NCBI GenBank assembly: GCA_947494995.1
Contig: CANLWY010000002.1
Coordinates: 248,001 to 312,000 of the forward strand
Source: an uncultured Campylobacterales bacterium
Lineage (GTDB): Bacteria; Campylobacterota; Campylobacteria; Campylobacterales; Arcobacteraceae
DNA: 64,000 bases
Direction of reading: 5' to 3'
This document shows positions 18,722 through 34,633 of this stretch, piece after piece. How positions within the stretch are numbered: the stretch's first letter is position 1; every line of letters begins with the position of its first letter. The position numbers and the translations under genes were made by a program. The notes beneath the pieces are model-generated. The model saw nothing but the letters and a program-made list of their open reading frames with translations, searched no databases and was not told the DNA's origin.

Positions 18722-21538
18722 TTGAAAAAAGTCACAGATGTCTTATTTTCCTTTAAGACAACGCTTATTTTATTTGTCATTTTGGCAGTAGGTGCAGGAG
18801 TTGCTACCTTTATTGAGAATGATTACGGAACATCAACAGCAAGAGTTCTAGTCTATAATCATTTTTGGTATGAGGCTGCTTTAGTTCTAACAACAATCAA
18901 TTTAGCAGGTATTATCTATAAATACAAAATGTGGAAAAACAAAGCAAGATTTATTTTTCATCTTTCGTTTGTAGTAATACTTATAGGTGCTGGAGTTACT
19001 AGATATATTGGATATGAAGGAATTATTCATATTAGAGAAGGTAACACTGAAAATAGAATGATTTCACTTGAACCATATCTACAAATTAAAATCAAGCAAG
19101 AGAATGCGAGCTACTATAAAGAGTATCAATTAGAGTTTGCCGCAGCAGGTCTTAAAAAAGGAATGGAAGGTGATACTTCAATTGGACTTATACCTAAAAT
19201 TGGTGGTATCATAAATGATTTTGATTATGATGTAAGCTTTAGTGACAAAAATTTAAATGTTAAATATGTGGATTACCTGGTTAGTAAAAAAGGGCAAGCT
19301 GAAATGGGTATTTTGACAGTAGATTTAACTCTTAATGGTGAAACTAAAACTATTAGACTACCAGGGAAAAGAGGTCAAAAAGGTGCTGCGAAAATTGAAG
19401 ACTTTGGAGATACTGTTGTAACTGTAGAGTATGGTTCAAAGACATTACAACTTCCTTTTACTATTGAATTAAGAGACTTCCAATTAGATAGATATCCAGG
19501 TTCTATGGCTCCATCATCTTATGCTTCAGAAGTTACAGTAAACAATAATGATGGAACAAGTTATGATTATAGGATTTTTATGAATAGAACATTACACCAA
19601 GGAAACTTTTTATTTTTCCAAAGTTCTTATGACCAAGATGAAAGAGGTACGATTCTTTCAGTAAATAATGACCCTGGGAAATGGCCTACATACTTAGGAT
19701 ACTTTTTATTAACACTTGGTTTAATTTTAAACTTTTTTGATAAGAAATCAAGATTCTGGAAACTTACAAAATATGTAAGTTCAAGAAGTGCCACAGCCTT
19801 TATTGCTGCTGTTTTACTTGCATGTAGTACAGGTACACTTGAAGCTGCTGAAAATAACAATAATCATGGTCTTCAATTTAAAACTTCACAAAATGACATG
19901 GATACATATCTAAAGACTTTTAAAGATAATTCAATTGAAACAGCTGATAAATTTTCTGAGATCGTTGTGCAAAGTAATGGTGGAAGAATGAAGCCATTAA
20001 ATACTTTAAATCATGAAGTTGTAAGTAAACTATCAGGTAAAGGTAAACTTTTTGGGATGAACTCTGACCAAATTATTCTAGGAATGCTTACAAGACCTGA
20101 AATTTGGCGAAATGTAGCAATGATTAAAATCAAAACTCCTAAATTAAAAAAGATTTTAAATATAGATAAAAGTAGAAAATATATTGCTTTCTCTGAGGTT
20201 TTCAAAGATGGTAAATATATTTTATCTGACCACGCGCAAAAAGCATTTATGGCAAAACCAAATGAAAGAGGAACATTTGAGAAAGATATTATTAAACTTG
20301 ATGAAAAACTAAACATCGCTTTTATGGTTTATAATGGAAATCTATTTAGAATGTTCCCTCAAACTGGTGTAAATGACAATAACAAATGGTATAACCCTCT
20401 TGATGCAATAAAAATGTTCCAAGGTGAAAACCAAAAAGCTATTGAATCTCTTATTAGAGGTTTCATTAATTCTGTTGTGCAAGAAGAATGGGCTTTATCA
20501 AATAAATTTATTATCATGATTAAAAAATATCAAAGCCAAGTTGGTAAAGATGTTATACCAAGTCAATCACAAATTGATAATGAAATTGCTTTCAATAAAC
20601 TTAATATTTTTCCTAAATTAACACTTGCTTATCTTTTCTTAGGTTTTGTAATGTTAATTGTTGCATTTATTGTTGTATTTAATCCAAAAATCCAACCAAA
20701 GAAAACAACTTTTGTATTCTTTATAATACTTGCCCTACTTTTTGCAGCACATACTTTTGGTATGGGATTTAGATGGGTTGTTTCAGGACATGCTCCATGG
20801 TCAGATACATATGAGTCACTTCTATATATTTCATGGTCAGCAGTTTTTGCAGCAGTTATTTTCTTTAGAAAATCACTTTTAGCTCTTAGTGCAGGTGTTA
20901 TTGTTGCAGCTATTTTTATGTTTACAGCTCACTTAACATCAATTGATCCACAAATTACAAACTTAGTTCCTGTACTTAAATCATACTGGCTAACTATTCA
21001 CGTATCAGTATTAACAGCATCTTATGGATTCTTTGGACTTAGTGCAATCTTAGGATTTATGGCTTTAATTATGTTTATTTTTAGAAAAAATAGACCTCAT
21101 TTAGATGATACTATTAAATACATTACTGCAATTAGTGAAATCTCATTAATTATTGGACTTGCTTGTATTGTAATTGGTAACTTCCTTGGTGGTGTTTGGG
21201 CAAATGAATCTTGGGGTAGATATTGGGGATGGGATCCAAAAGAGACATGGTCTTATGTTGCAATTGTAACTTATACACTTGTTCTTCACTTAAGATTTGT
21301 AAAAGCTCTTAACAATCCTTTTGTATTTAATACTTGTGCTTTATTAGCTTTTGCTACAATTCTAATGACATATTTTGGAGTTAACTTCTATTTATCTGGA
21401 ATGCACTCATATGCTACAGGAGATCCTGTTCCTGTTCCTATGTGGGTATATTATGTAACAGCAGCTGTTTTTGTAACAATTGCTCTTGCATATAAAAATA
21501 GAGACCTTAAAGATATGATTAATAATAAAACAAAATAA
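18722..21538 (+). CDS. ccsBA: Fused cytochrome c biogenesis protein CcsBA
   Basis: 938 residues. The N-terminal ResB/CcsB part has membrane helices and a large periplasmic loop (LFFQSSYDQDERG). After about residue 640 comes the CcsA part with the heme-handling tryptophan-rich motif WGRYWGWDPKETWS. This system II synthetase exports heme and joins it to CxxCH motifs outside the inner membrane. The start is TTG at 18722 with AAGGA at 6 bases; the ATG at 18717 runs into a stop at once. The gene is essential for making the c-type cytochromes encoded nearby, including the twelve-heme protein. Confidence 0.95.
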   Translation: MKKVTDVLFSFKTTLILFVILAVGAGVATFIENDYGTSTARVLVYNHFWYEAALVLTTINLAGIIYKYKMWKNKARFIFHLSFVVILIGAGVTRYIGYEGIIHIREGNTENRMISLEPYLQIKIKQENASYYKEYQLEFAAAGLKKGMEGDTSIGLIPKIGGIINDFDYDVSFSDKNLNVKYVDYLVSKKGQAEMGILTVDLTLNGETKTIRLPGKRGQKGAAKIEDFGDTVVTVEYGSKTLQLPFTIELRDFQLDRYPGSMAPSSYASEVTVNNNDGTSYDYRIFMNRTLHQGNFLFFQSSYDQDERGTILSVNNDPGKWPTYLGYFLLTLGLILNFFDKKSRFWKLTKYVSSRSATAFIAAVLLACSTGTLEAAENNNNHGLQFKTSQNDMDTYLKTFKDNSIETADKFSEIVVQSNGGRMKPLNTLNHEVVSKLSGKGKLFGMNSDQIILGMLTRPEIWRNVAMIKIKTPKLKKILNIDKSRKYIAFSEVFKDGKYILSDHAQKAFMAKPNERGTFEKDIIKLDEKLNIAFMVYNGNLFRMFPQTGVNDNNKWYNPLDAIKMFQGENQKAIESLIRGFINSVVQEEWALSNKFIIMIKKYQSQVGKDVIPSQSQIDNEIAFNKLNIFPKLTLAYLFLGFVMLIVAFIVVFNPKIQPKKTTFVFFIILALLFAAHTFGMGFRWVVSGHAPWSDTYESLLYISWSAVFAAVIFFRKSLLALSAGVIVAAIFMFTAHLTSIDPQITNLVPVLKSYWLTIHVSVLTASYGFFGLSAILGFMALIMFIFRKNRPHLDDTIKYITAISEISLIIGLACIVIGNFLGGVWANESWGRYWGWDPKETWSYVAIVTYTLVLHLRFVKALNNPFVFNTCALLAFATILMTYFGVNFYLSGMHSYATGDPVPVPMWVYYVTAAVFVTIALAYKNRDLKDMINNKTK

Positions 21539-25322: not shown

Positions 25323-25763
25323 ATGTCCAATGATTTAAAAGAGTTATTAAACTTTAGTCATAAACTTAATGTTCTTTTTGTAGAAGACAATTATGATGTC
25401 AGAATTCAACTATTAAAATTATTAGAAAATTTTTTTACAAAAATTGATGTTGAAACTGATGGTTTAGATGCATTAAATAAGTATATAGATTACAAAAAAG
25501 AGAATAATAAGTATTATGATTTAATCATTACTGATTTAAGTATGCCAAAGCTTGATGGTATTGATTTTTGTCAAAAAGTTATAGAGAAAAACCCTAAACA
25601 ACTAATTCTAGTAATATCTGCACATACTGAATCAGCAAAACTACTAAAACTTATAGATATTGGAATATTTAAATTTTTACAAAAACCTGTTGATTATAGA
25701 GATTTATTAAATACACTATCTTCTATTATAAATAAACTAAAAGAAGAAAAAACTTTTTCTTAG
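25323..25763 (+). CDS. Single-domain response regulator
   Basis: 146 residues, receiver domain only: FVEDNYDVR, phosphoacceptor in LIITDLSMPKLDG, and the Lys in LQKPVDY. There is no output domain, so it acts by protein contact or as a phosphate sink or relay. It follows the two-SBP kinase by 9 bases and is cotranscribed with it. The stop overlaps the 3' end of the convergent kinase gene by four bases, so the two operons meet tail to tail. Confidence 0.85.
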   Translation: MSNDLKELLNFSHKLNVLFVEDNYDVRIQLLKLLENFFTKIDVETDGLDALNKYIDYKKENNKYYDLIITDLSMPKLDGIDFCQKVIEKNPKQLILVISAHTESAKLLKLIDIGIFKFLQKPVDYRDLLNTLSSIINKLKEEKTFS

Positions 25764-27547
25764 ATATAAATAGTAAACAAAGCACCTAAATTTTTATTCT
25801 CTACTTTGATTTTACCTTTCATTCTCTCTTCAATAATAGCTTTTGATAAATAAAGACCTATTCCTGTACCCTTCTCTCTTTTGGTTGTAAAATAAGGATC
25901 AAAAATACTATTTATTATATGCTTAGGTATCCCTCCAGCATTGTCTTGCACAGATATTTCTATTTTTTCTGCAATTTTTTTAATATTTATACTAATTTTA
26001 GGATTTTCTATACTATTTTCATCAAAAGCATCTTTTGCATTAACTATTAAATTCATTAGTACTTGTGAAAACTCATTTTTATTTCCATATATAGTTGCAT
26101 TATTTTTATCATTTATTTCAATTTGAATATTTTTATGTTCAAGCATTGGACCAATAATATTTAGAATAGATTCATATGCATCAATAATATAAAACTCTTT
26201 TTTATTTGTATCTTTTTTATAAAAATCCTTAAAATTATCAATAGTATTTGACATGAATTCTATTTGATAAAGAGAAGTATTTAAAGACTCATTTAATAGA
26301 TCATCATTTAATTTGCCTTTATTATGAAAGGCTTTTAAATTTTGTAAAGTCAATGAAAGACGTGTTAATGGATGTCTCCATTGATGAGCAATATTACCTA
26401 TCATATCCCCTAATTCTGCTAGCTTACTCTGGTTTTGTAATAACCTATCTTTTTTTGCATTCTTTAAAGTTTCTACTTGTACTTTTTTATCTAAATTTGT
26501 TGCTAAATCATGAAGTTTCTCAGCCTGTGTAACAACAATTTCATACATATGTTTTAATGGATTTGAAAAAATTATACTAAATATTATAGACATAAAAAAT
26601 GAAAAGATTAAAATAGCAATAATCATCTTATTATTATTCTCTTCAACCTCTTTTTTTGATTTATCTGTTTCTACTAAGATCATATTAAATCTTTGATTTC
26701 CTAAACTTAAAGGTTGAACATAGATATTATTAGTTAAAACCCTTCCTATAGTGGCATCACTTTGAATTTGATATACAATATTATCTTCAAAATCATGATC
26801 TAATCTATATTTTGTATTATATAAAGACCAATTATACTTACTATTTTTATGTCTCACATAATACCCTGCACTATCACTTATATAAATATCATATATTACT
26901 GATTTTGTAATACTTTCAAAAAGATCTTTCATAAAAATATTTATAATTAAGATACCTTCAAACTTATCATTAATATAGATTGGAGTTGCTACTCTTACAA
27001 CAGATTTATTTGGTTTTTCAACTTTCCCATGTTCAATATTTAAATCAATAGGAGAAAACCATACAGAGCCCTTATTAATTAAACTTGCATTTTTAAAATA
27101 ATATCTACTTGATTTATCTTGAAGCTTAAGGGTTTTATAGGGTTCATATGACTTTTTTTCTCTCTCAAATCTAAGTTTTTCCATCCCATTTTTATCAATA
27201 AAACGCATTTGCATATACTCTTTGTTTGCTTCCATTAGAGTAAGAAAAAGAAGATCAATATAATAGTTATAAGAACCATCTTCAACAAATCTTTCAAAAT
27301 ATTCATTTCTAGCAATTGCTAAAATTGCATCACCTCTTTTTTTAAAAAAACTATCAAACTCTTTTTTCTTTTCATCACTTTGTAAAGTAACTTCTCTTTC
27401 AAATTTATGAAGCTTTAAATCTTCTGATAAATAAATATGTATTATAGTAATTGAAGTAATAAGAAGTAGTGTAAATGTAATATAGGATAAAAATAATTTA
27501 AACCCAAATTTCTTATGTTGTTTTGATAATTTTTCTACTTCAATCAT
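25760..27547 (-). CDS. Membrane sensor kinase with periplasmic Cache-like domain
   Basis: 595 residues. Membrane helix 1 (FKLFLSYITFTLLLITSITI) and a second near residue 307-328 bracket a periplasmic domain of about 270 residues with double-Cache character (IYISDSAGYYVRH, VRVATPIYINDKFEGIL). The kinase core has IAHQWRHPL (near residue 385; the usual Gln is His), LIVNAKDAF, DNAGGIP and GTGIGLYLSK. It overlaps its upstream response regulator gene by 8 bases. It is the last gene of the thioredoxin-cytochrome-regulator-kinase operon, and so may sense the condition that operon handles. Confidence 0.87.
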   Translation of the reverse strand: MIEVEKLSKQHKKFGFKLFLSYITFTLLLITSITIIHIYLSEDLKLHKFEREVTLQSDEKKKEFDSFFKKRGDAILAIARNEYFERFVEDGSYNYYIDLLFLTLMEANKEYMQMRFIDKNGMEKLRFEREKKSYEPYKTLKLQDKSSRYYFKNASLINKGSVWFSPIDLNIEHGKVEKPNKSVVRVATPIYINDKFEGILIINIFMKDLFESITKSVIYDIYISDSAGYYVRHKNSKYNWSLYNTKYRLDHDFEDNIVYQIQSDATIGRVLTNNIYVQPLSLGNQRFNMILVETDKSKKEVEENNNKMIIAILIFSFFMSIIFSIIFSNPLKHMYEIVVTQAEKLHDLATNLDKKVQVETLKNAKKDRLLQNQSKLAELGDMIGNIAHQWRHPLTRLSLTLQNLKAFHNKGKLNDDLLNESLNTSLYQIEFMSNTIDNFKDFYKKDTNKKEFYIIDAYESILNIIGPMLEHKNIQIEINDKNNATIYGNKNEFSQVLMNLIVNAKDAFDENSIENPKISINIKKIAEKIEISVQDNAGGIPKHIINSIFDPYFTTKREKGTGIGLYLSKAIIEERMKGKIKVENKNLGALFTIYI

Positions 27548-28193
27548 ACTTTTCTATCTTATATCCGACATTTCTAATATTAACTATAATATTTTCATTA
27601 AGTTTAGATCTTAGCTTTTTAATCTTTGTTCTTAAAGTGTTATTACAAACCTCTTTATCTTCCCAAACATAATCTATAATAATTTCAGGACTTATGGGAC
27701 TTCCAAGATTTTTTACAAGGAGATATAAAAGTTCTTTTTCTTGTGTATTTAAAGAAACCAATTCATCTTTTTTATAATAAAGTTCCATATTACACAAATC
27801 AAAACAGTAATCATTAGATAATTTGACTCTATCCATACAATTTTTATGAATTAGTTGATTAATTCTAAGCTCGAGTTCTTCAAAGATAAAAGGTTTTCTT
27901 ACATAATCATTACAACCTGCAGCATATCCTTTTTTTACATGATCAAGATCATTCATTGCTGTTAAATATATAGCAGGAGTTGTACTATCTTTTCTAATTT
28001 CTGTTAAGGTCTCAATACCATTTTTAACTGGAGTATTAATATCTAATAAAAACACATCATAAATACTTAAATCAGCATTATCTATTAGACTCTGCCCATC
28101 ATTGTAATAATCAACTTTATGATCGTTTAATTCAAAGTAGTTTTTTACTTGCTGGCAAATAAAATCATCATCTTCTAATAATAATATTTTCAT
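27540..28193 (-). CDS. OmpR-family response regulator
   Basis: 217 residues. The receiver has LLLEDDDF, phosphoacceptor in VFLLDINTP, and the Lys in YVRKPFIFEELELRI. The output is a winged helix (LNTQEKELLYLLVKN, NIRNVGYKIEKYD). It overlaps the kinase start downstream by 8 bases and begins 8 bases after the monoheme cytochrome gene, so it is in one operon with the redox proteins. It is the obvious partner of the Cache kinase and a candidate regulator of the divergent twelve-heme cytochrome gene. Confidence 0.9.
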   Translation of the reverse strand: MKILLLEDDDFICQQVKNYFELNDHKVDYYNDGQSLIDNADLSIYDVFLLDINTPVKNGIETLTEIRKDSTTPAIYLTAMNDLDHVKKGYAAGCNDYVRKPFIFEELELRINQLIHKNCMDRVKLSNDYCFDLCNMELYYKKDELVSLNTQEKELLYLLVKNLGSPISPEIIIDYVWEDKEVCNNTLRTKIKKLRSKLNENIIVNIRNVGYKIEKYD

Positions 28194-28201
28194 AGTTTCC
28201 T

Positions 28202-28567
28202 TTAATTACATGTTGGAATATGTTCAGAGTCATAAGCAAACTCTTGTAAGAATTCTAACATCAATTTACTTTGTTCTTTAAAAACTTCTCCTTTCAAATA
28301 CTTAACAAGCTCTTTTGAACTTTCATCTTCCTCATGTAAATATATTAACTCATCAGCACTATTATCAAACATCATTTTCCATTCTCTTATAGAGGCCATA
28401 TTACCTCCTCTATTACCTTCACCATGGCATGCAGAACAGTTTTTCAAATAATATTCTTGTCCAACTAAATTCTTTGTTGCATACTCACCTCTTATCTTTG
28501 CCCCATATAAAGGATTTAGAAAAATTAGAGTTAGAATTAAAAATATTAAACTATTTCTTAAAATCAT
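28202..28567 (-). CDS. Secreted monoheme c-type cytochrome
   Basis: 121 residues from ATG 28567, chosen because GGAGAG precedes it and the signal peptide then starts correctly (MILRNSLIFLILTLIF). One heme site CSACHG (C44, C47, H48) follows QEYYLKN. The 70 residues after it are acidic and helical (HEEDESSKELVKYL), unlike ordinary c553. The start lies inside the 3' end of the thioredoxin-like gene (17-base overlap), implying coupled translation. Probably an electron carrier for the same periplasmic process as the divergent twelve-heme cytochrome. Confidence 0.85.
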   Translation of the reverse strand: MILRNSLIFLILTLIFLNPLYGAKIRGEYATKNLVGQEYYLKNCSACHGEGNRGGNMASIREWKMMFDNSADELIYLHEEDESSKELVKYLKGEVFKEQSKLMLEFLQEFAYDSEHIPTCN

Positions 28568-29042
28568 ATTTCTCTCCATATAGTTTCTCAAACTTCTTAA
28601 TTGCATCATCCATCCATTCTAGCATCTGTTCAAGATTCCACATTCCATATATAATCATATGTTTTTTTCCACGCCTTGAAAGCATCTCTTCATTTGGCCC
28701 CATAAAATATATAGCTGGAGTCATAGAAAGACTCAACCGTGCAGGAACTTGTCCTGTATTTGCTACATCAGAATCATAATCTGTTGAATTATCTAAATAC
28801 ACAGGTGTAAAATATTTTTTTATTTTTTCTTGAAACTTTGGATGTGATAAAACTTCTGCTTTTAATTTAGGGCAATAAAAACATGTCCTAGAATCTAAAA
28901 ATAAGAAAATAGGCTTTTTCTTATAGTTTGCAACTTGTATTCCATCATTAAACTCATTTTGCCATATTAAGCCTTCTTGCCAATTGTTTAAAGCAAAAAG
29001 AGAAGAAGTAAATAACAAAATACTAAATACTACTCTTTTCAT
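28551..29042 (-). CDS. Periplasmic thioredoxin-like protein (CFYC)
   Basis: 163 residues from ATG 29042 (AAAGGAAAAC upstream). It has a signal peptide (MKRVVFSILLFTSSLFA), then a thioredoxin fold of the thioredoxin_7/DUF255-like kind: FLFLDSRTCFYCPKLK with C54 and C57, and the cis-proline region SLSMTPAIYFMG. It could reduce heme-site or substrate disulfides in the periplasm, or handle sulfur. It is the first gene of the minus-strand operon with the monoheme cytochrome, response regulator and kinase, and has an FNR/CRP-type box at an ideal distance upstream. Confidence 0.87.
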   Translation of the reverse strand: MKRVVFSILLFTSSLFALNNWQEGLIWQNEFNDGIQVANYKKKPIFLFLDSRTCFYCPKLKAEVLSHPKFQEKIKKYFTPVYLDNSTDYDSDVANTGQVPARLSLSMTPAIYFMGPNEEMLSRRGKKHMIIYGMWNLEQMLEWMDDAIKKFEKLYGEKYDFKK

Positions 29043-29096
29043 AGTTTTCCTTTCATGCATCTTTTTTTATTCTAACAGATTGTAAAATAATATAAA

Positions 29097-29243: not shown

Positions 29244-31610
29244 ATGAAAAGCTCTATGTTTAGAATTGCTTTTATCGCCTGTTTAACAGTGTTCTTTTCA
29301 ACTTTTGCTTTTGGTGCTGAGCACACAAAAGGAAAAGCTGAAATGGCACCTGTTGAAGGTGGGGATTCTTGTATCAAATGTCACAAAGGTATTGAGTCTA
29401 TTAGAGACCAAAAATCTGACATGATGCAACAAATCATCGCTATGGGTCATACTATGGGAGATACTGCTGGTTGTGTGGTATGTCACGGTGGTAACCCAGA
29501 AGACGGAACAGTAGCTGGTGCGCACAAAGGTGCTCCAAAAGCACACGCTGGTGGTCTGTCAGAGTTTGTTAGAGATCCAGGTTCAATCTGGATTGCAGAC
29601 AAAACATGTGGTATCTGTCACTCAGATACTGTAAAAAATACTATGAAGTCATTAATGATGACTGAAGCTGGTAAAATTCAAGGTAACTTACATGCATGGG
29701 GAAGTGAAAAAACTAAAAAAGTTCAGTTCGCAAACTATGATGTAAAAGATGAAGATGGAAAAACTCCAGCTTGGGGAACAAAGGTATATAAAGATTATAT
29801 GGTTAAAATGATCGATAAATACCCTGACCAATTCCCTACTGAGTTGAAACAACTTCCATTACCTCCAACTGGACCAGAAGATTTTGTTGGTAAATCTGAG
29901 GAAGAGATTGGATATATGGCTTCTATTACATACCAAAGAGCTGATTGTCAAAGATGTCACATCGGTGTTAGAGGTAGAAAAGGAAGAGGTGACTGGAGAG
30001 GTATGGGATGTTCTGCATGTCATATGCCTTATGGAAATGAAGGTATCTATGAAGGTGGAGATCCAACAATTGACAAGTCTGAGCACGGTCATATGTTAGT
30101 TCACATGATGCAAGGTTCAAGAGAAGCTAAAGTTAAAACTCCATCTGGTTTAGAGTTTAGTGGTATTCACCCAGAAACTTGTAACTCTTGTCACAATAGA
30201 GGTAAAAGAATTGGAGTTTCTTATGTTGGTTTAATGGAGCAACCATATGGTTCACCATTACAAGCAGGTGGAAAATCACAATCTAAATCTCACGGTAAGA
30301 GATATAAACATATCAAAGAAGACCTACACTTTGAAGCTGGTATGACTTGTCAAGATTGTCACACTTCAGTTGATATGCATGGTGATGGTACATTATTTGG
30401 TACTACTTTAGGACAAGTTGAAATTGAGTGTGCTGATTGTCACGGTACAAACGACAAATATCCATGGGAATTACAAATTGGTTATGGTGAAAACTTTGGT
30501 ATTGAAACACCTGAGGGACCAAGAGGTATGGCTAATGAACTACCATACTGGATGACTCAAGGTACAGTATATGATCCACAAGCTGGATATTTACTATCTA
30601 CTAGAGGTAACCCATTAGGAAATGTTGTTAAAGTAAAAGGTGAAGAGAAAGTTATCGCTCACTTAGCATCTGGAAAAGATTTAGAAGTTCCTTTATTAAA
30701 ATATAAAGCTAAAACTTCATCTTGGAAATCAAAAGATGCAGATGTTGCTATGGGTAAAATCCAAGCACACATGGATAAACTAGAATGTTATTCTTGTCAC
30801 TCTGATTGGGCACCTCAGTGTTATGGTTGTCACATTAAAGTTGATTATACGCCAGGAAAGTCTAAAACTGACTGGATTGCGTCTGGATCTACAAACTTTA
30901 AAAATGGTGAAACTTCAGAGTCTGTTCTTGGAACAAAAGGTAAGAAATTATTTGGTAAACCAAGTGAAACTAGATCTTATTTAAGATGGGAAGATCCAAT
31001 CTTAGGTATTAATGGTGAAGGACTTGTAACTCCAATTATGCCTGGTTGTCAAGTAACATTTACAGTAATTGGACCAGATGGTAAAACATTAATCCTGAAT
31101 AAACAAGCAAGAGTACCTTCTCACGATGGTAAAATGGTTGCTGGTACGGACATGTCTCCAGTACAACCTCACACATCTGGAAGAAAAGCTAGATCTTGTG
31201 AATCTTGTCACTCAAATCCTAAAACTTTAGGATATGGTATTCAAGATGGTCAATTTATGACTGGACAAGGGAAAGATCTATATATGGATCTTCAAGACCT
31301 TAGAACTGGTGAGTATATTCCTGAAAACAAAACAGTTCAAATGAAAGGTATTCCTGGAATGGATTATGACTGGTCTCAAGTTGTTACTAGAGATGGTAAA
31401 CAGTTACAAACAGTTGGAACTCACTGGCCTGCATCAAGACCTCTTGATCAAGACATGAGAGAAAACATGGAGAAAACTGGTTTATGTATGGGTTGTCATC
31501 AAAATATGAACAATGACGAGCTATGGAAAAAACTAGACAGTAACAAAAAACTTGATGTAAATGAACACATCAACAAAATGCATGAAATTATAAATAAAGC
31601 TGCAAAGTAA
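29244..31610 (+). CDS. Secreted dodecaheme c-type cytochrome
   Basis: 788 residues from ATG 29244 (AAGGAG 6 bases upstream). A signal peptide (MKSSMFRIAFIACLTVFFST) precedes twelve canonical CxxCH sites between residue 43 (CIKCH) and 752 (CMGCH): CIKCH, CVVCH, CGICH, CQRCH, CSACH, CNSCH, CQDCH, CADCH, CYSCH, CYGCH, CESCH, CMGCH. No membrane anchor or lipobox. It does not fit octaheme MccA (which has a long CX15CH site), NrfA, Otr or HAO by heme number and length. Codons are those of a highly expressed gene. I infer a periplasmic oxidoreductase or electron conduit, with the FccB-like flavoprotein and thioredoxin-fold proteins downstream as partners. Confidence 0.92.
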   Translation: MKSSMFRIAFIACLTVFFSTFAFGAEHTKGKAEMAPVEGGDSCIKCHKGIESIRDQKSDMMQQIIAMGHTMGDTAGCVVCHGGNPEDGTVAGAHKGAPKAHAGGLSEFVRDPGSIWIADKTCGICHSDTVKNTMKSLMMTEAGKIQGNLHAWGSEKTKKVQFANYDVKDEDGKTPAWGTKVYKDYMVKMIDKYPDQFPTELKQLPLPPTGPEDFVGKSEEEIGYMASITYQRADCQRCHIGVRGRKGRGDWRGMGCSACHMPYGNEGIYEGGDPTIDKSEHGHMLVHMMQGSREAKVKTPSGLEFSGIHPETCNSCHNRGKRIGVSYVGLMEQPYGSPLQAGGKSQSKSHGKRYKHIKEDLHFEAGMTCQDCHTSVDMHGDGTLFGTTLGQVEIECADCHGTNDKYPWELQIGYGENFGIETPEGPRGMANELPYWMTQGTVYDPQAGYLLSTRGNPLGNVVKVKGEEKVIAHLASGKDLEVPLLKYKAKTSSWKSKDADVAMGKIQAHMDKLECYSCHSDWAPQCYGCHIKVDYTPGKSKTDWIASGSTNFKNGETSESVLGTKGKKLFGKPSETRSYLRWEDPILGINGEGLVTPIMPGCQVTFTVIGPDGKTLILNKQARVPSHDGKMVAGTDMSPVQPHTSGRKARSCESCHSNPKTLGYGIQDGQFMTGQGKDLYMDLQDLRTGEYIPENKTVQMKGIPGMDYDWSQVVTRDGKQLQTVGTHWPASRPLDQDMRENMEKTGLCMGCHQNMNNDELWKKLDSNKKLDVNEHINKMHEIINKAAK

Positions 31611-31632
31611 TTATTTAGATTTTAAGTAAAAG

Positions 31633-31656
31633 AAAGGGGCATCTTGCCCCTTTTTT
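31633..31656 (+). terminator. Intrinsic terminator after the dodecaheme gene
   Basis: AAAGGGGCA (31633-31641), loop TCT, TGCCCCTTT (31645-31653), then T-run. The dodecaheme gene is thus likely transcribed alone at high level, with the following genes on a separate or readthrough transcript. Confidence 0.85.
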
Positions 31657-31738
31657 AACACTTAATTATTTTTAATTATGTTAATATCGAATCAACATAT
31701 TTAATATTATTAAGAATAATCTTAACAAAAGGAAAAAA

Positions 31739-32434
31739 ATGAATTATAAACTATTATCAAAGATTTCAATTGCTTCAGTTATTACTGCATCAATTTTATT
31801 TACAGGTTGTGGAGAAAAAACAAGTTCTGAGGCTCAAGTAGTTGAACAAAAAACAACAAATACAAATGTTGAAACTCCTTCTGTTAAAAAGAATGAAGAA
31901 GTTAAAATTAAGGTTGAAAAGAAAGAAAAACCTGTAACATATACAAAATATGAAGCAGTAGTTCAAGAAGTATTTAAAGATGTTGCTAAAATTGCACCAG
32001 AGGGAAAACAAATGATTATGGTGTTTGGAACAAATACTGATCCATATTCTGATAGATTAAAAGCAGATATTACAAACTCTCCTGAACTTCAAAAGAGAAT
32101 TAAAGAAGATTTCTCTTCATACTATTTTAAAGCACATGAGAATTTAAGACATAAACAGTTCCATGAAGGGGAATTAATGGATGTTGATACTAAAACTATG
32201 TTAATGGTTTATGGTATTGAAGCAACACCTACTATTATCTTTACAGATTTAAATGCAAAAGCTGTTATTGTAGTACCTGGTTATATGCCTGAAAAACAGT
32301 TTTTAGTTACTATGGACTTTATGGCACAAGGAAAATGGAAAGGTAAAGATAGAAAAAATGGGGAAGTGTATCAGGCACTAAGAGACTTTTATGTGGCAAA
32401 TGGAATTGATGTAACTAAAAAAAAGGCTGAATAA
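31739..32434 (+). CDS. Thioredoxin-fold lipoprotein without active-site cysteines
   Basis: 231 residues. A lipoprotein signal peptide ends in LFTGC (lipid-attached C24), then a low-complexity linker rich in Lys/Glu/Thr to residue 70. The C-terminal domain looks like SoxW/thioredoxin_7 proteins (QMIMVFGTNTDPYSDRLK, EATPTIIFTD). Where the next gene has TCPYCD, this one has TDPYSD, so both redox cysteines (positions 101 and 104) are gone and C24 is the only cysteine. A structural or docking role is more likely than thiol catalysis. The stop overlaps the start of the next gene (TAATG). Confidence 0.82.
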   Translation: MNYKLLSKISIASVITASILFTGCGEKTSSEAQVVEQKTTNTNVETPSVKKNEEVKIKVEKKEKPVTYTKYEAVVQEVFKDVAKIAPEGKQMIMVFGTNTDPYSDRLKADITNSPELQKRIKEDFSSYYFKAHENLRHKQFHEGELMDVDTKTMLMVYGIEATPTIIFTDLNAKAVIVVPGYMPEKQFLVTMDFMAQGKWKGKDRKNGEVYQALRDFYVANGIDVTKKKAE

Positions 32435-32976
32435 TGATGAAAATATTAATCCCTACTCTTACTCTTATGGTGTTGATGGTAGTTTATACCTTTGCATCAA
32501 AAGATGGGAAAGAAGTTGTACCAACAGCTAAAAAAATAGAAATGCAAAAAGAACAAACACTTTTTCAAGAAGGCAGTAATCTTGTTGCAAATGGTAAAGG
32601 TGTAATGTTTATCTTTGAAAGTGATACTTGTCCATATTGTGATCTTCTAAAAAAAGATTTTAAAGAAAACAAAGAGATGAATGAACTTGCAGGGGAATTT
32701 AATATTTACTTAATCAATAGAGAAAAAGAACAAGACTATATTGTAGGTAAAACAAAGAAAAAAGAGACAACAACAACTCTTAGAATGGCATTTGTTGCAA
32801 AGTCTACTCCAAATATAGTAATATTTGATAAACATTGGAATAAAATTTTTCAAGTTCCTGGATATGCTTATCCAACTCAAATGATTACTTTTATGAAGTT
32901 TGTTAAAGGTCTTCATGAAGGAAAGTATGATACTAAAGATTGGCAAAAATTTTTAAAAGATAATGGTGTTTCATAA
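32434..32976 (+). CDS. Periplasmic thioredoxin-like protein (CPYC), SoxW-like
   Basis: 180 residues (the second ATG at 32437 is equally possible). An N-terminal membrane or signal helix (ILIPTLTLMVLMVVYTFA) precedes a thioredoxin fold with GVMFIFESDTCPYCDLLK (C66, C69) and KSTPNIVIFD as cis-proline region. Paralogous to the preceding cysteine-less lipoprotein; the pair may form a heterodimer. SoxW-type proteins keep sulfur-oxidation or cytochrome components reduced. One base separates its stop from the FccB-like gene start, indicating tight coupling. Confidence 0.85.
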   Translation: MMKILIPTLTLMVLMVVYTFASKDGKEVVPTAKKIEMQKEQTLFQEGSNLVANGKGVMFIFESDTCPYCDLLKKDFKENKEMNELAGEFNIYLINREKEQDYIVGKTKKKETTTTLRMAFVAKSTPNIVIFDKHWNKIFQVPGYAYPTQMITFMKFVKGLHEGKYDTKDWQKFLKDNGVS

Positions 32977-32977
32977 A

Positions 32978-34279
32978 ATGAAAAGAAGAGATTTTCTTAA
33001 ACTTTCTGCTATTACAGCTTCAATGTTAGTGACAACTAATATTGAAGCAACATTAAACTCAAAAGATATTTTAAATAAATCTAATGTTTTAATTCTTGGT
33101 GGTGGTTTTGCAGGATTAAGTACTGCAAAATTCTTAAAAGAACTAAATCCAAAATTAAATGTAACCCTTATTGAAAAAAACCCTCTTTTTGTTTCATGCC
33201 CATTATCAAATGCTTGGATAGGTGAAGTTACAGATATTGAATATAAAGATTTATGTTTTGATTACAATAGTACTGTTATAAAACATAAATATAATTTTAT
33301 AAATGAAACTATCCTTGATATAAAAAGAGAAGAAAAAGAAGTTATTACAGAAAACCAAACAATAAAGTATGATTTTCTAGTAATGACTTTAGGAATAGAC
33401 TATAACTATAAAAAATTATTTAGACGAGATAAACAAAAAGCAAAAGAGACTGCTTTAAAAGCTCCTGCAGCCCTTAAACCAGGAAGTGAATTAATAAAAC
33501 TAAAAAGAATGGTTGAAAACTTCAAAGGTGGAAACTTTGTATTATCTTTACCAAAATCTTCTTATAAGTGTCCCCCTGCTCCATATGAAAGAGCTTGTAT
33601 GATTGCAAACTATTTTAAGAAAAATAAAATTAATGGAAAAGTAATACTTGTAGACCCAAGAGCAAAACCTGCTTCAAAATCAAAAGTCTATTTAGAGGCC
33701 TTTAATACTGAGTATAAGGACTTTATAGAATATCAACCTTTAACAAAATTCAAAGATATAAATTTTGAAGAAAAAAAGATTTATACAAAAAGTTTTGATG
33801 AAAAGAAAGATAAATATATTATAAAAGAGATTCCTTTTGAAGAGGCTTCAATTATTCCCCCAAATAGAGCAAATAAACTATATAAAAAAGCCAAAATAGA
33901 TATGTATACACAAGGTTGGGTTAAACTAAAACAACCTACTTATCAAACAGTAAGTGATGAAAATGTATACGTAATAGGTGATGCTCAAGGAGAATATCCT
34001 TTCCCAAAATCAGGACAAATGGCAAGCTCCTGTGCTTATGTGTTAGCAAAAGATATTAACGCAAGAATAAATAAAGAAACATTTGATTATAGGAAAAACC
34101 TTCCTGGCAATATTTGTTATTCAATAGTTACTGATAAAAAAGGTGCTTGGGTTAGTCATAACTATAAATTTGAAAATAAAATGCTAGTTAATAGTGAAAC
34201 TTCAGAACTTTCAATTGAAAGTTTTAATTCTGCAAAAGAGTGGTATAACGGTTTTACAAATGAACTGTTTGGATTATAA
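32978..34279 (+). CDS. Tat-exported FccB/SoxF-like sulfide dehydrogenase flavoprotein
   Basis: 433 residues from ATG 32978. A Tat signal (MKRRDFLKLSAITASMLVTT) is followed by an FAD-binding Rossmann motif (VLILGGGFAGLSTAKFL), VSCPLSNAWIG, and a second dinucleotide domain. KCPPAPYER (C198) and NICYSIV (C380) match what I recall as the two redox cysteines of flavocytochrome c sulfide dehydrogenase next to FAD. That enzyme oxidises sulfide to sulfur and passes electrons to the FccA diheme cytochrome. No fccA is here, so the monoheme or dodecaheme cytochrome may accept the electrons. Sulfide:quinone reductase is less likely because of the export signal. Confidence 0.82.
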   Translation: MKRRDFLKLSAITASMLVTTNIEATLNSKDILNKSNVLILGGGFAGLSTAKFLKELNPKLNVTLIEKNPLFVSCPLSNAWIGEVTDIEYKDLCFDYNSTVIKHKYNFINETILDIKREEKEVITENQTIKYDFLVMTLGIDYNYKKLFRRDKQKAKETALKAPAALKPGSELIKLKRMVENFKGGNFVLSLPKSSYKCPPAPYERACMIANYFKKNKINGKVILVDPRAKPASKSKVYLEAFNTEYKDFIEYQPLTKFKDINFEEKKIYTKSFDEKKDKYIIKEIPFEEASIIPPNRANKLYKKAKIDMYTQGWVKLKQPTYQTVSDENVYVIGDAQGEYPFPKSGQMASSCAYVLAKDINARINKETFDYRKNLPGNICYSIVTDKKGAWVSHNYKFENKMLVNSETSELSIESFNSAKEWYNGFTNELFGL

Positions 34280-34288
34280 GGAATATAA

Positions 34289-34633
34289 ATGAAAAAATTA
34301 GTTTTAATAAGTGCTATGTTAACAAGTTCACTTTTTGCCCAAACAATTTGGCTAGAAGAAGCACCAAAAAGAATGAATTGGCATGATGCCATAAAATATT
34401 GTAAAAATATAGGTGCAATTTTACCTTCAAAAAAAGTATTTCAAACAATTTGGTACGCAAATGATAGAGCTTCTGATGTTGATGGTTTTGAATTATCAGT
34501 TTCATACTGGACAAGTGATGAAGTAAAAGGTAATAAACATGCTGCATATCCTTTTTACTTTGTACAAGGTAGAGACACTTGGTACTACAAAGCAGATAAA
34601 TATGGAGTAAGATGTATAAAAAAAGCTAAATAA
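34289..34633 (+). CDS. Small secreted DUF1566-like protein
   Basis: 114 residues. A signal peptide (MKKLVLISAMLTSSLFA) precedes a compact domain typical of DUF1566/Lcl C-terminal proteins: MNWHDAIKYCKNIGA, SYWTSDEVKG, and GVRCIKK at the end. This fold resembles formylglycine-generating-enzyme/C-lectin domains in small extracytoplasmic proteins; its function is unknown. It lies 9 bases after the FccB-like gene and closes the operon. Two cysteines probably form a disulfide. Its stop codon is part of a hairpin shared with the convergent gene. Confidence 0.75.
   Translation: MKKLVLISAMLTSSLFAQTIWLEEAPKRMNWHDAIKYCKNIGAILPSKKVFQTIWYANDRASDVDGFELSVSYWTSDEVKGNKHAAYPFYFVQGRDTWYYKADKYGVRCIKKAK

Follow-up and report, generated by a model that had tools for sequence, protein, structure and literature searches.

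The closest described relative of the protein considered here, a predicted dodecaheme c-type cytochrome encoded in 64,000 nucleotides of DNA (hereafter the window; contig CANLWY010000002.1, positions 248,001 to 312,000) from an uncultured bacterium of the Campylobacterales, is ExtM, a 12-heme protein of the extHIJKLMNOPQS cluster of Geobacter sulfurreducens (PMC5877670). Its neighbours there are the 10-heme ExtN, the Rieske protein ExtO and the cytochrome b ExtP, and the cluster also encodes a rhodanese. The passages of the same paper that deal with phenotypes report that loss of the porin gene extI alters how selenite and tellurite are converted, and refer to preliminary work showing impaired selenite reduction after disruption of the cytochrome genes 3' of extI. 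Other points of comparison are the periplasmic multiheme enzymes NrfA and SirA (MccA), whose accessory lyases, respectively NrfEFG and SirEFG, serve an atypical heme motif according to passages of PMC12285233 and PMC6976685.

The open reading frame of the window cytochrome opens with an ATG at 29,244, just 3' of an AGGAG, and stops at 31,610. A first-pass annotation, made from the sequence alone, described its product as a secreted 788-residue protein with exactly twelve CXXCH sites, and this description holds. The N-terminus, assessed by eye, resembles a signal peptide, and the motif occurs exactly twelve times (residues 43, 77, 122, 235, 256, 313, 369, 396, 515, 526, 652 and 748), against a mean of 0.036 and a maximum of 2 in 2000 shuffles of the protein minus its first 25 residues. 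Beyond the signal region, C602 is the sole cysteine outside the heme motifs. The annotation was also right that the heme pattern does not assign the protein to MccA, NrfA, Otr or HAO. MccA/SirA is expected to have eight hemes and one long CXnCH, and the sole long-motif hit in the window protein is the overlap of two adjacent CXXCH. NrfA is a pentaheme protein, usually with a CXXCK, and the window protein has neither a CXXCK nor a match to Cytochrom_C552. As for OTR and HAO, a Cytochrome_C554-type domain reached 19.6 bits (cut-off 20.8) over one region of this twelve-heme protein. None of the NrfA, HAO and peroxidase models scored above its cut-off. Pfam returned short matches of the c7/c3 and MtrC/MtrF types and nothing longer. 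A single-sequence search of the PDB gave no convincing match (best E 0.28) and a 46-sequence profile gave one weak match, to a cytochrome c555 trimer (E 0.0045). The AlphaFold2 model, in which hemes are absent (mean pLDDT 77.9, pTM 0.81), retrieved nothing at E <= 0.001 with Foldseek and nothing at Z >= 2 with VIA-align. The GSU1996-type cytochromes of Geobacter also carry twelve hemes per chain, but they are repeats of c7 domains, whereas the PDB sequence hits of the window cytochrome are weak and its fold hits nil. Plasmid records contained only partial matches (22-29% identity, Sphingobium and Sphingopyxis), and PHROGs had none for the cytochrome or for the small Lcl_C-like protein encoded at the end of the operon.

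Profile comparison does provide a named homologue, although below its curated threshold. The window cytochrome scores 218.5 bits on the NCBIfam ExtM model (NF040943; cut-off 800), and three other proteins of the same long form score 224.9, 228.3 and 236.8 bits. When 46 long forms were compared using hhalign with three short ExtM-like proteins, all campylobacterotal and one of them from the window's own genome (two were scored on NF040943, both below the cut-off), 539 columns were aligned with an E of 1.3e-62. The joint alignment brings all twelve hemes and Cys602 into register, with homology across most of the length; the corresponding PGCQ cysteine of the campylobacterotal ExtM-like proteins is likewise conserved, and several other conserved histidines of the long form have no counterpart in the short proteins. 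Collinear hemes on the one hand and the failed cut-off on the other place the window cytochrome, on sequence comparison, within the ExtM superfamily but outside ExtM as defined by the curated test. The long form also differs from ExtM in its length (~750-900 versus ~600 aa), and the window locus has none of the ext-type partners (Rieske, cytochrome b, rhodanese, second cytochrome), whereas Rieske and cytochrome b genes do neighbour two Chloroflexota long forms (L110 and L121). The order downstream of these two is a tetratricopeptide repeat (TPR) protein, a GltD-like flavoprotein, cytochrome b, another membrane protein, a Rieske protein and a protein that has four CXXCH motifs. The L110 cytochrome b reaches 283 bits on the ExtP model (cut-off 290); the Rieske protein was tested at L110, and the remaining Chloroflexota loci are too short or do not carry these genes. 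The short ExtM-like 12-heme protein of the window's genome (268 bits) is encoded apart from the window locus, next to a 10-heme protein (L036; G000:C1:27477-37679). The same cluster includes a cytochrome b, a Rieske protein, a PhsA-like molybdoenzyme (503 bits, cut-off 694), a 4Fe-4S protein, NrfD and a rhodanese, and appears to combine features of an ext cluster with those of a thiosulfate/polysulfide reductase. In the open-access PMC literature, ExtM and its cluster were found, and no report of the long form was recognised, the passages of PMC12442390, PMC10045233 and PMC11748539 included. The long form makes up a large, widespread and apparently unstudied family of bacterial proteins, a distant relation of a cytochrome from the selenite operon of Geobacter.

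A tblastn search of a species-level genome collection, at a loose threshold (E <= 1e-3), found at least 494 stretches encoding a relative of the cytochrome. The best 80 of these belong to about nine phyla (Campylobacterota, Pseudomonadota, Deinococcota, Chloroflexota, Planctomycetota, Bacteroidota, Gemmatimonadota, Poribacteria and Dadabacteria), as assigned from the titles of records that are mostly metagenome bins, some of which may contain binning errors. Their hosts include sulfur-oxidising symbionts, marine alphaproteobacteria and Thermaceae. The cytochrome is present in 14 of the 104 genomes of the window's own family, and in the phylum as a whole 55 of 397 genomes gave a match to the ExtM model (long and short forms pooled), with no score above the cut-off. 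The window's genome (G000, 3.17 Mb) is Arcobacteraceae-like, its closest named rows in the tree being Halarcobacter and Arcobacter. In this tree, reconstructed with a quick method, the soluble and the membrane-anchored campylobacterotal sequences form sister clades (SH-aLRT = 96), the second of which has a long branch, and seven Chloroflexota rows branch next (89). A gene transfer from alphaproteobacteria had been considered, as the window protein is 52-56% identical to non-campylobacterotal sequences versus 45-47% to the anchored form, but the sister relationship of the two campylobacterotal forms makes it unnecessary. At one locus of the anchored form (L044:6073-8463), the genes immediately downstream encode a multicopper oxidase and CopB.

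The conservation of residues was studied in an alignment of 90 rows, some of them truncated or near-duplicate. Ten histidines outside the heme motifs are invariant or nearly so (94, 287, 350, 362, 379 and 509 in 90/90 rows each, 473 in 88/90, 643 and 727 in 88/88, 775 in 87/87), while position 283 is a histidine in 75 rows, a lysine in 14 and a tyrosine in one. Since twelve hemes face ten histidines and His/Lys283, at least one heme is predicted to lack a conserved distal histidine. Cys602, kept in all 89 rows aligned at that position, is the obvious candidate to occupy it, although the invariant methionines 60 and 138 and lysines 144, 321 and 352 are alternative candidates. Only three single cysteines occur at window-aligned positions beyond Cys602 and the 24 heme cysteines, and the insertions of the 16 rows checked contain none. 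The proposed site may be likened to the thiolate-type heme active sites that occur in SoxA, TsdA and DsrJ. The motif of heme 3 is CXXCH in 74 of the 90 rows; the variants shown have CX4CH or CX5CH instead, and the motif is expanded in L085, L092, L095, L099, L105-L107, L117, L118, L122, L125, L130 and L131. Heme 1 has a CX4CH in two rows (L128 and L129).

The genes around the cytochrome were surveyed at 33 campylobacterotal loci (duplicates removed, many contigs short), 54 loci outside the phylum and seven loci of the anchored type. Co-conservation with the downstream genes, by which the first-pass annotation had proposed to judge its reading, holds for some of them only. Both thioredoxin-fold genes that follow the cytochrome are found at 28 of the 33 campylobacterotal loci; four of the five exceptions (L055, L071, L077, L078) stop within or just after the cytochrome gene, and only L079 is truly without the pair. 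The divergent genes on the other side of the cytochrome, which together with the two-component system (25,760-29,060) had been omitted from that annotation, also recur: the divergent thioredoxin-fold gene at 25 loci, the one-heme cytochrome at 24, and homologues of the response regulator and sensor kinase (homology being the level of comparison, not orthology) at 26 and 23. The FccB-type flavoprotein, by contrast, is encoded at six of the 33 loci, all of them from Arcobacteraceae, and the small Lcl_C-like gene at seven. None of the thioredoxin-fold, one-heme cytochrome, FccB and Lcl_C-like genes was found at the 54 loci outside the phylum or at the seven anchored-type loci. In addition, two genomes (G004 and G024) have close FccB relatives (52-56%) elsewhere and a cytochrome locus without FccB; in a third (G007), the FccB relative is on a different contig, which leaves its distance from the cytochrome undefined. 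These data make FccB a local addition and an occasional companion of the cytochrome. A block of oxaloacetate decarboxylase and PEP carboxykinase genes that recurs upstream of L066, L069, L070 and L076 was set aside as unrelated.

Outside the Campylobacterota the cytochrome keeps other company. A TPR protein gene lies downstream at 29 of the 54 loci, and one or other of two small secreted proteins is encoded at 16 and 16 of them. At least one Ccm gene is present at 16 loci, 13 of which have CcmF, and CcsBA at two; the identities of CcmF, CcmH, CcmI, CcmC and CcmE were confirmed with family models on examples. Fourteen genomes were searched for CcmF, L087 and others being left out. Among the alphaproteobacteria in which CcmF adjoins the cytochrome, a second CcmF, 50-55% identical, is encoded elsewhere in nine of nine genomes (family confirmed by models for two of them; in G476 the cytochrome-side copy is broken across contigs), and G477, which has no CcmF at its cytochrome locus, has one copy in all. 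Because the second copy recurs in all nine, as with NrfA and SirA, it suggests that the cytochrome has a dedicated heme lyase in alphaproteobacteria. The resemblance to NrfA/NrfEFG and SirA (MccA)/SirEFG lies in a periplasmic multiheme enzyme adjoined by a second CcmF-type lyase in these nine members; the differences are that those enzymes have five or eight hemes rather than twelve and that the long form has no CXXCK, long CXnCH or corresponding Pfam match. In the Campylobacterota, the idea that the CcsBA encoded upstream of the window cytochrome is its dedicated synthase was dropped, since the same copy exists in 37 of the 38 Arcobacteraceae genomes searched, 24 of which do not have the cytochrome and 14 of which do; this CcsBA is probably a general one. 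Crp/Fnr-family regulators lie beside six copies of the cytochrome, and those of them that were tested, two in number, show a resemblance to FixK and FnrL that stays below the cut-off; such neighbours suggest low-oxygen expression of some copies. A role in NO sensing was also considered, as heme-Cache-like proteins (PMC12889525) are found near a few copies, and abandoned, since no consistent link was seen.

The interpretation that we tentatively prefer, while giving it somewhat less than an even chance, is that the locus encodes a respiratory module: a periplasmic dodecaheme oxidoreductase with its site at Cys602, thioredoxin helpers and an optional FccB. The cytochrome is probably a reductase rather than another kind of oxidoreductase. 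The quinol pool would supply electrons, by way of a bc-type complex and the divergently encoded one-heme cytochrome, to the dodecaheme protein, whose hemes would relay them to the one that binds the substrate, next to the sole free cysteine; there a soluble acceptor would be reduced. The thioredoxin-fold proteins may keep the heme-attachment cysteines and/or Cys602 reduced, in maturation or thiol protection, and would take the place held in alphaproteobacteria by a dedicated CcmF-CcmH-CcmI lyase. The two-component system would control the expression of the module, and FccB, where present, could feed in electrons from sulfide. The favoured class of substrate is a sulfur or selenium/tellurium oxyanion, or polysulfide, only because of the ext cluster, the PhsA-like and rhodanese genes beside the short paralogue and the occasional FccB. 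Observation establishes the family, the number of hemes, the invariance of Cys602, the co-conserved neighbours and the second CcmF of nine alphaproteobacteria, whereas the direction in which electrons flow, the active site, the substrate and the parts played by helpers and regulators are inferred. What is supported of the periplasmic sulfur electron chain proposed in the first-pass annotation is a periplasmic multiheme system whose thioredoxin-fold partners are co-conserved within the Campylobacterota; the system may also act in sulfur chemistry. A bolder version, possible but in our opinion doubtful, would see here a pan-bacterial family of dodecaheme respiratory enzymes, as yet undescribed, with Cys602 either ligating one heme or lying close by it, so that ten histidines, His/Lys283 and Cys602 would supply twelve candidate distal ligands for twelve hemes. 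Despite its ordinary-looking heme motifs, such a family would rely on dedicated helpers for maturation: CcmFHI in alphaproteobacteria, the thioredoxin-fold proteins in Campylobacterota.

Several observations weigh against the preferred interpretation. Dedicated lyases usually serve an atypical motif, and the long form has CXXCH throughout, apart from CX4CH/CX5CH at one heme. Searches revealed no second CcmF in two Thermaceae and a gammaproteobacterium, which have one copy each, and no CcmF at all in one Bacteroidota genome. The CcsBA of Arcobacteraceae is shared with genomes devoid of the cytochrome, and the CXXC of the lipoprotein thioredoxin encoded directly downstream of the cytochrome is kept in nine of 32 rows of relatives, duplicates included. 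Beside most non-campylobacterotal copies, many of whose neighbours were read by eye, no gene of sulfur or selenium metabolism could be recognised. No homologue encountered in the analysis has a known activity: the passages of PMC5877670 that describe ExtM ascribe no reaction to it, and those of a paper on cable bacteria name ExtN, not ExtM, among the possibly catalytic cytochromes (PMC11976967).

The main rival, which we deem unlikely, is that the protein is a pure electron relay, its twelve hemes storing charge or conducting electrons across the periplasm or out of it, as in extracellular electron transfer, without catalysis. The MtrC/MtrF-type and c7/c3-type Pfam matches would agree with such a conduit, as would the Porin_5-type barrel that adjoins the cytochrome at eight of the 54 non-campylobacterotal loci (tblastn) and at a ninth, L100 (blastp). 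Yet no Porin_5-type match was obtained at any of the 33 campylobacterotal loci, and no second multiheme gene lies directly beside the soluble-type campylobacterotal copies. Moreover, extHIJKL is reported to be dispensable for Fe(III) oxide and low-potential electrodes (passages of PMC5877670), and the invariant lone cysteine and the second lyase suit an enzyme better than a wire. A reading in which the acceptor is instead a compound like nitrite, nitric oxide, hydroxylamine or peroxide, and in which the thioredoxin-fold proteins act in redox stress defence, is quite improbable. Multiheme reductases of nitrogen oxides are common, the Crp/Fnr-type regulators beside some alphaproteobacterial copies would fit, and such chemistry requires one open heme; nevertheless, the recurrent neighbour families that were scanned, a subset of the neighbours, yielded no recognisable nitrogen-oxide gene, and the lack of a CXXCK and of any NrfA, HAO or peroxidase score above cut-off speaks against this proposal. 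To the original suggestion of the first-pass annotation, a sulfide-oxidising chain in which the dodecaheme protein takes the electrons of FccB in place of the diheme FccA, we likewise give little credence, for although FccB keeps its conserved cysteines, its gene abuts the thioredoxin pair where present (gap of -14 to +12 bases) and some family hosts have titles bearing the names of sulfur oxidisers (Thiosymbion, Sedimenticola, Thiotrichaceae), the cytochrome is far more widely distributed than this pairing, which is confined to the six Arcobacteraceae loci mentioned above and missing even where FccB is encoded elsewhere in the genome.

The features of the window locus are collected in Table 1.

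Table 1. Features of the dodecaheme cytochrome locus and its surroundings, in window coordinates
Feature	Coordinates	Strand	Basis or remark
CcsBA (ResB-CcsA) cytochrome c synthase	18722..21538	+	~8 kb upstream of cytochrome
Sensor histidine kinase, PF21623 sensor domain	25760..27547	-	Domain match
OmpR-type response regulator	27540..28193	-	Domain match
Small one-heme cytochrome, possible electron partner	28202..28609	-	Closest small cytochrome to operon
Divergent thioredoxin-fold protein, CFYC (Thioredoxin_7)	28551..29060	-	Domain match
Dodecaheme c-type cytochrome, long-form ExtM relative	29244..31610	+	788 aa, signal-like N-terminus, heme motifs
Hairpin and U run, then long A+U stem; possible attenuator or mRNA-stabilising element	31611..31738	+	Folding
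Probable lipoprotein, thioredoxin fold, CXXC lost (TDPYS)	31739..32434	+	PF13098, E 1.3e-15
Thioredoxin-fold protein, CPYC, hydrophobic N-terminus	32434..32976	+	PF13098, E 7e-15
FccB-type flavoprotein, twin-arginine signal; accessory, variable	32963..34279	+	FCSD_central, FCSD-flav_bind
Small Lcl_C-like protein; accessory, variable	34289..34633	+	30.9 bits (cut-off 34.9)

The remaining components of the operon agree with their initial description: two thioredoxin-fold proteins 3' of the cytochrome, a flavoprotein with both sulfide-dehydrogenase cysteines, a small secreted protein at the end and no diheme FccA, since neither the open reading frames nor the motif scan revealed a two-heme protein in the operon. 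The first thioredoxin-fold protein has a candidate lipobox (FTGC) missed by the lipoprotein pattern, which flags several of its relatives. Its active site looks like a case of stepwise loss: CXXC is kept in L058, L061, L066, L068-L070, L072/L145 and L076, replaced by GPYC in L065 and L073-L075, and by DPYS or DPYT in most Arcobacteraceae rows. The second keeps its CXXC in 30 of 30 rows of relatives and the divergent one in all 29 rows listed, duplicates included in both cases. The flavoprotein aligns with the flavocytochrome c flavoproteins 5n1t, 3vrd and 1fcd. Its C203 and C385 (C198 and C380 if counted from an MKRR start) correspond to the conserved cysteines of the CPP.PYERA and CYS(I/L/V) segments and C79 to the conserved N-terminal cysteine; we take the former to be the redox pair and the latter the flavin-linking residue. 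The operon thus resembles FccAB in its FccB-type flavoprotein, with FCSD domains and conserved cysteines, but differs from it in the absence of FccA and in the lack of co-conservation between FccB and the cytochrome. The sensor kinase is 32% identical to that of a Chloroflexota locus (L111:6383-8209) over 161 sensor residues (E 4e-26), though this domain may simply be common.

The spacer that separates the cytochrome from the thioredoxin genes was folded for eight Arcobacteraceae, the window included. Two successive hairpins were present in all eight, with differing stem sequences, and each spacer was more stable than every one of 200 shuffles (z from -3.7 to -7.9); a U run follows the first hairpin in six. 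A terminator pattern scan flagged the hairpin only on the other strand, among five terminator-like sites versus 3.3 expected, and the cytochrome and thioredoxin genes abut or overlap at eight other campylobacterotal loci. The simplest reading is that the spacer may act by attenuation, holding the expression of the helper genes below that of the cytochrome.

Other cytochrome genes were noted in the same genome. A NrfA-like gene (Cytochrom_C552, 575.7 bits, CXXCK) adjoins a four-heme gene and a CcsBA-like gene of 1058 aa (L165:8144-13463, on G000:C1), so that in this case a different cytochrome is predicted to have a dedicated synthase. A ten-CXXCH protein (~685 aa) is encoded near CcsBA-like genes (1064 and 575 aa) and small one-heme proteins (L164:9270-18125, on G000:C5), and looks like a multiheme cytochrome with its own synthase. 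At the beginning of the window, two near-identical one-heme cytochromes (91 and 92 aa) are encoded in tandem (1342-1617 and 1764-2042).

Although at least 494 stretches encode a relative, the curated models searched match the long form with scores that stay under their cut-offs. Should the long form prove to be a respiratory enzyme, an electron-transfer pathway of wide occurrence would have been overlooked, and the invariant Cys602, the count of distal ligands and the second lyase make this idea directly testable.

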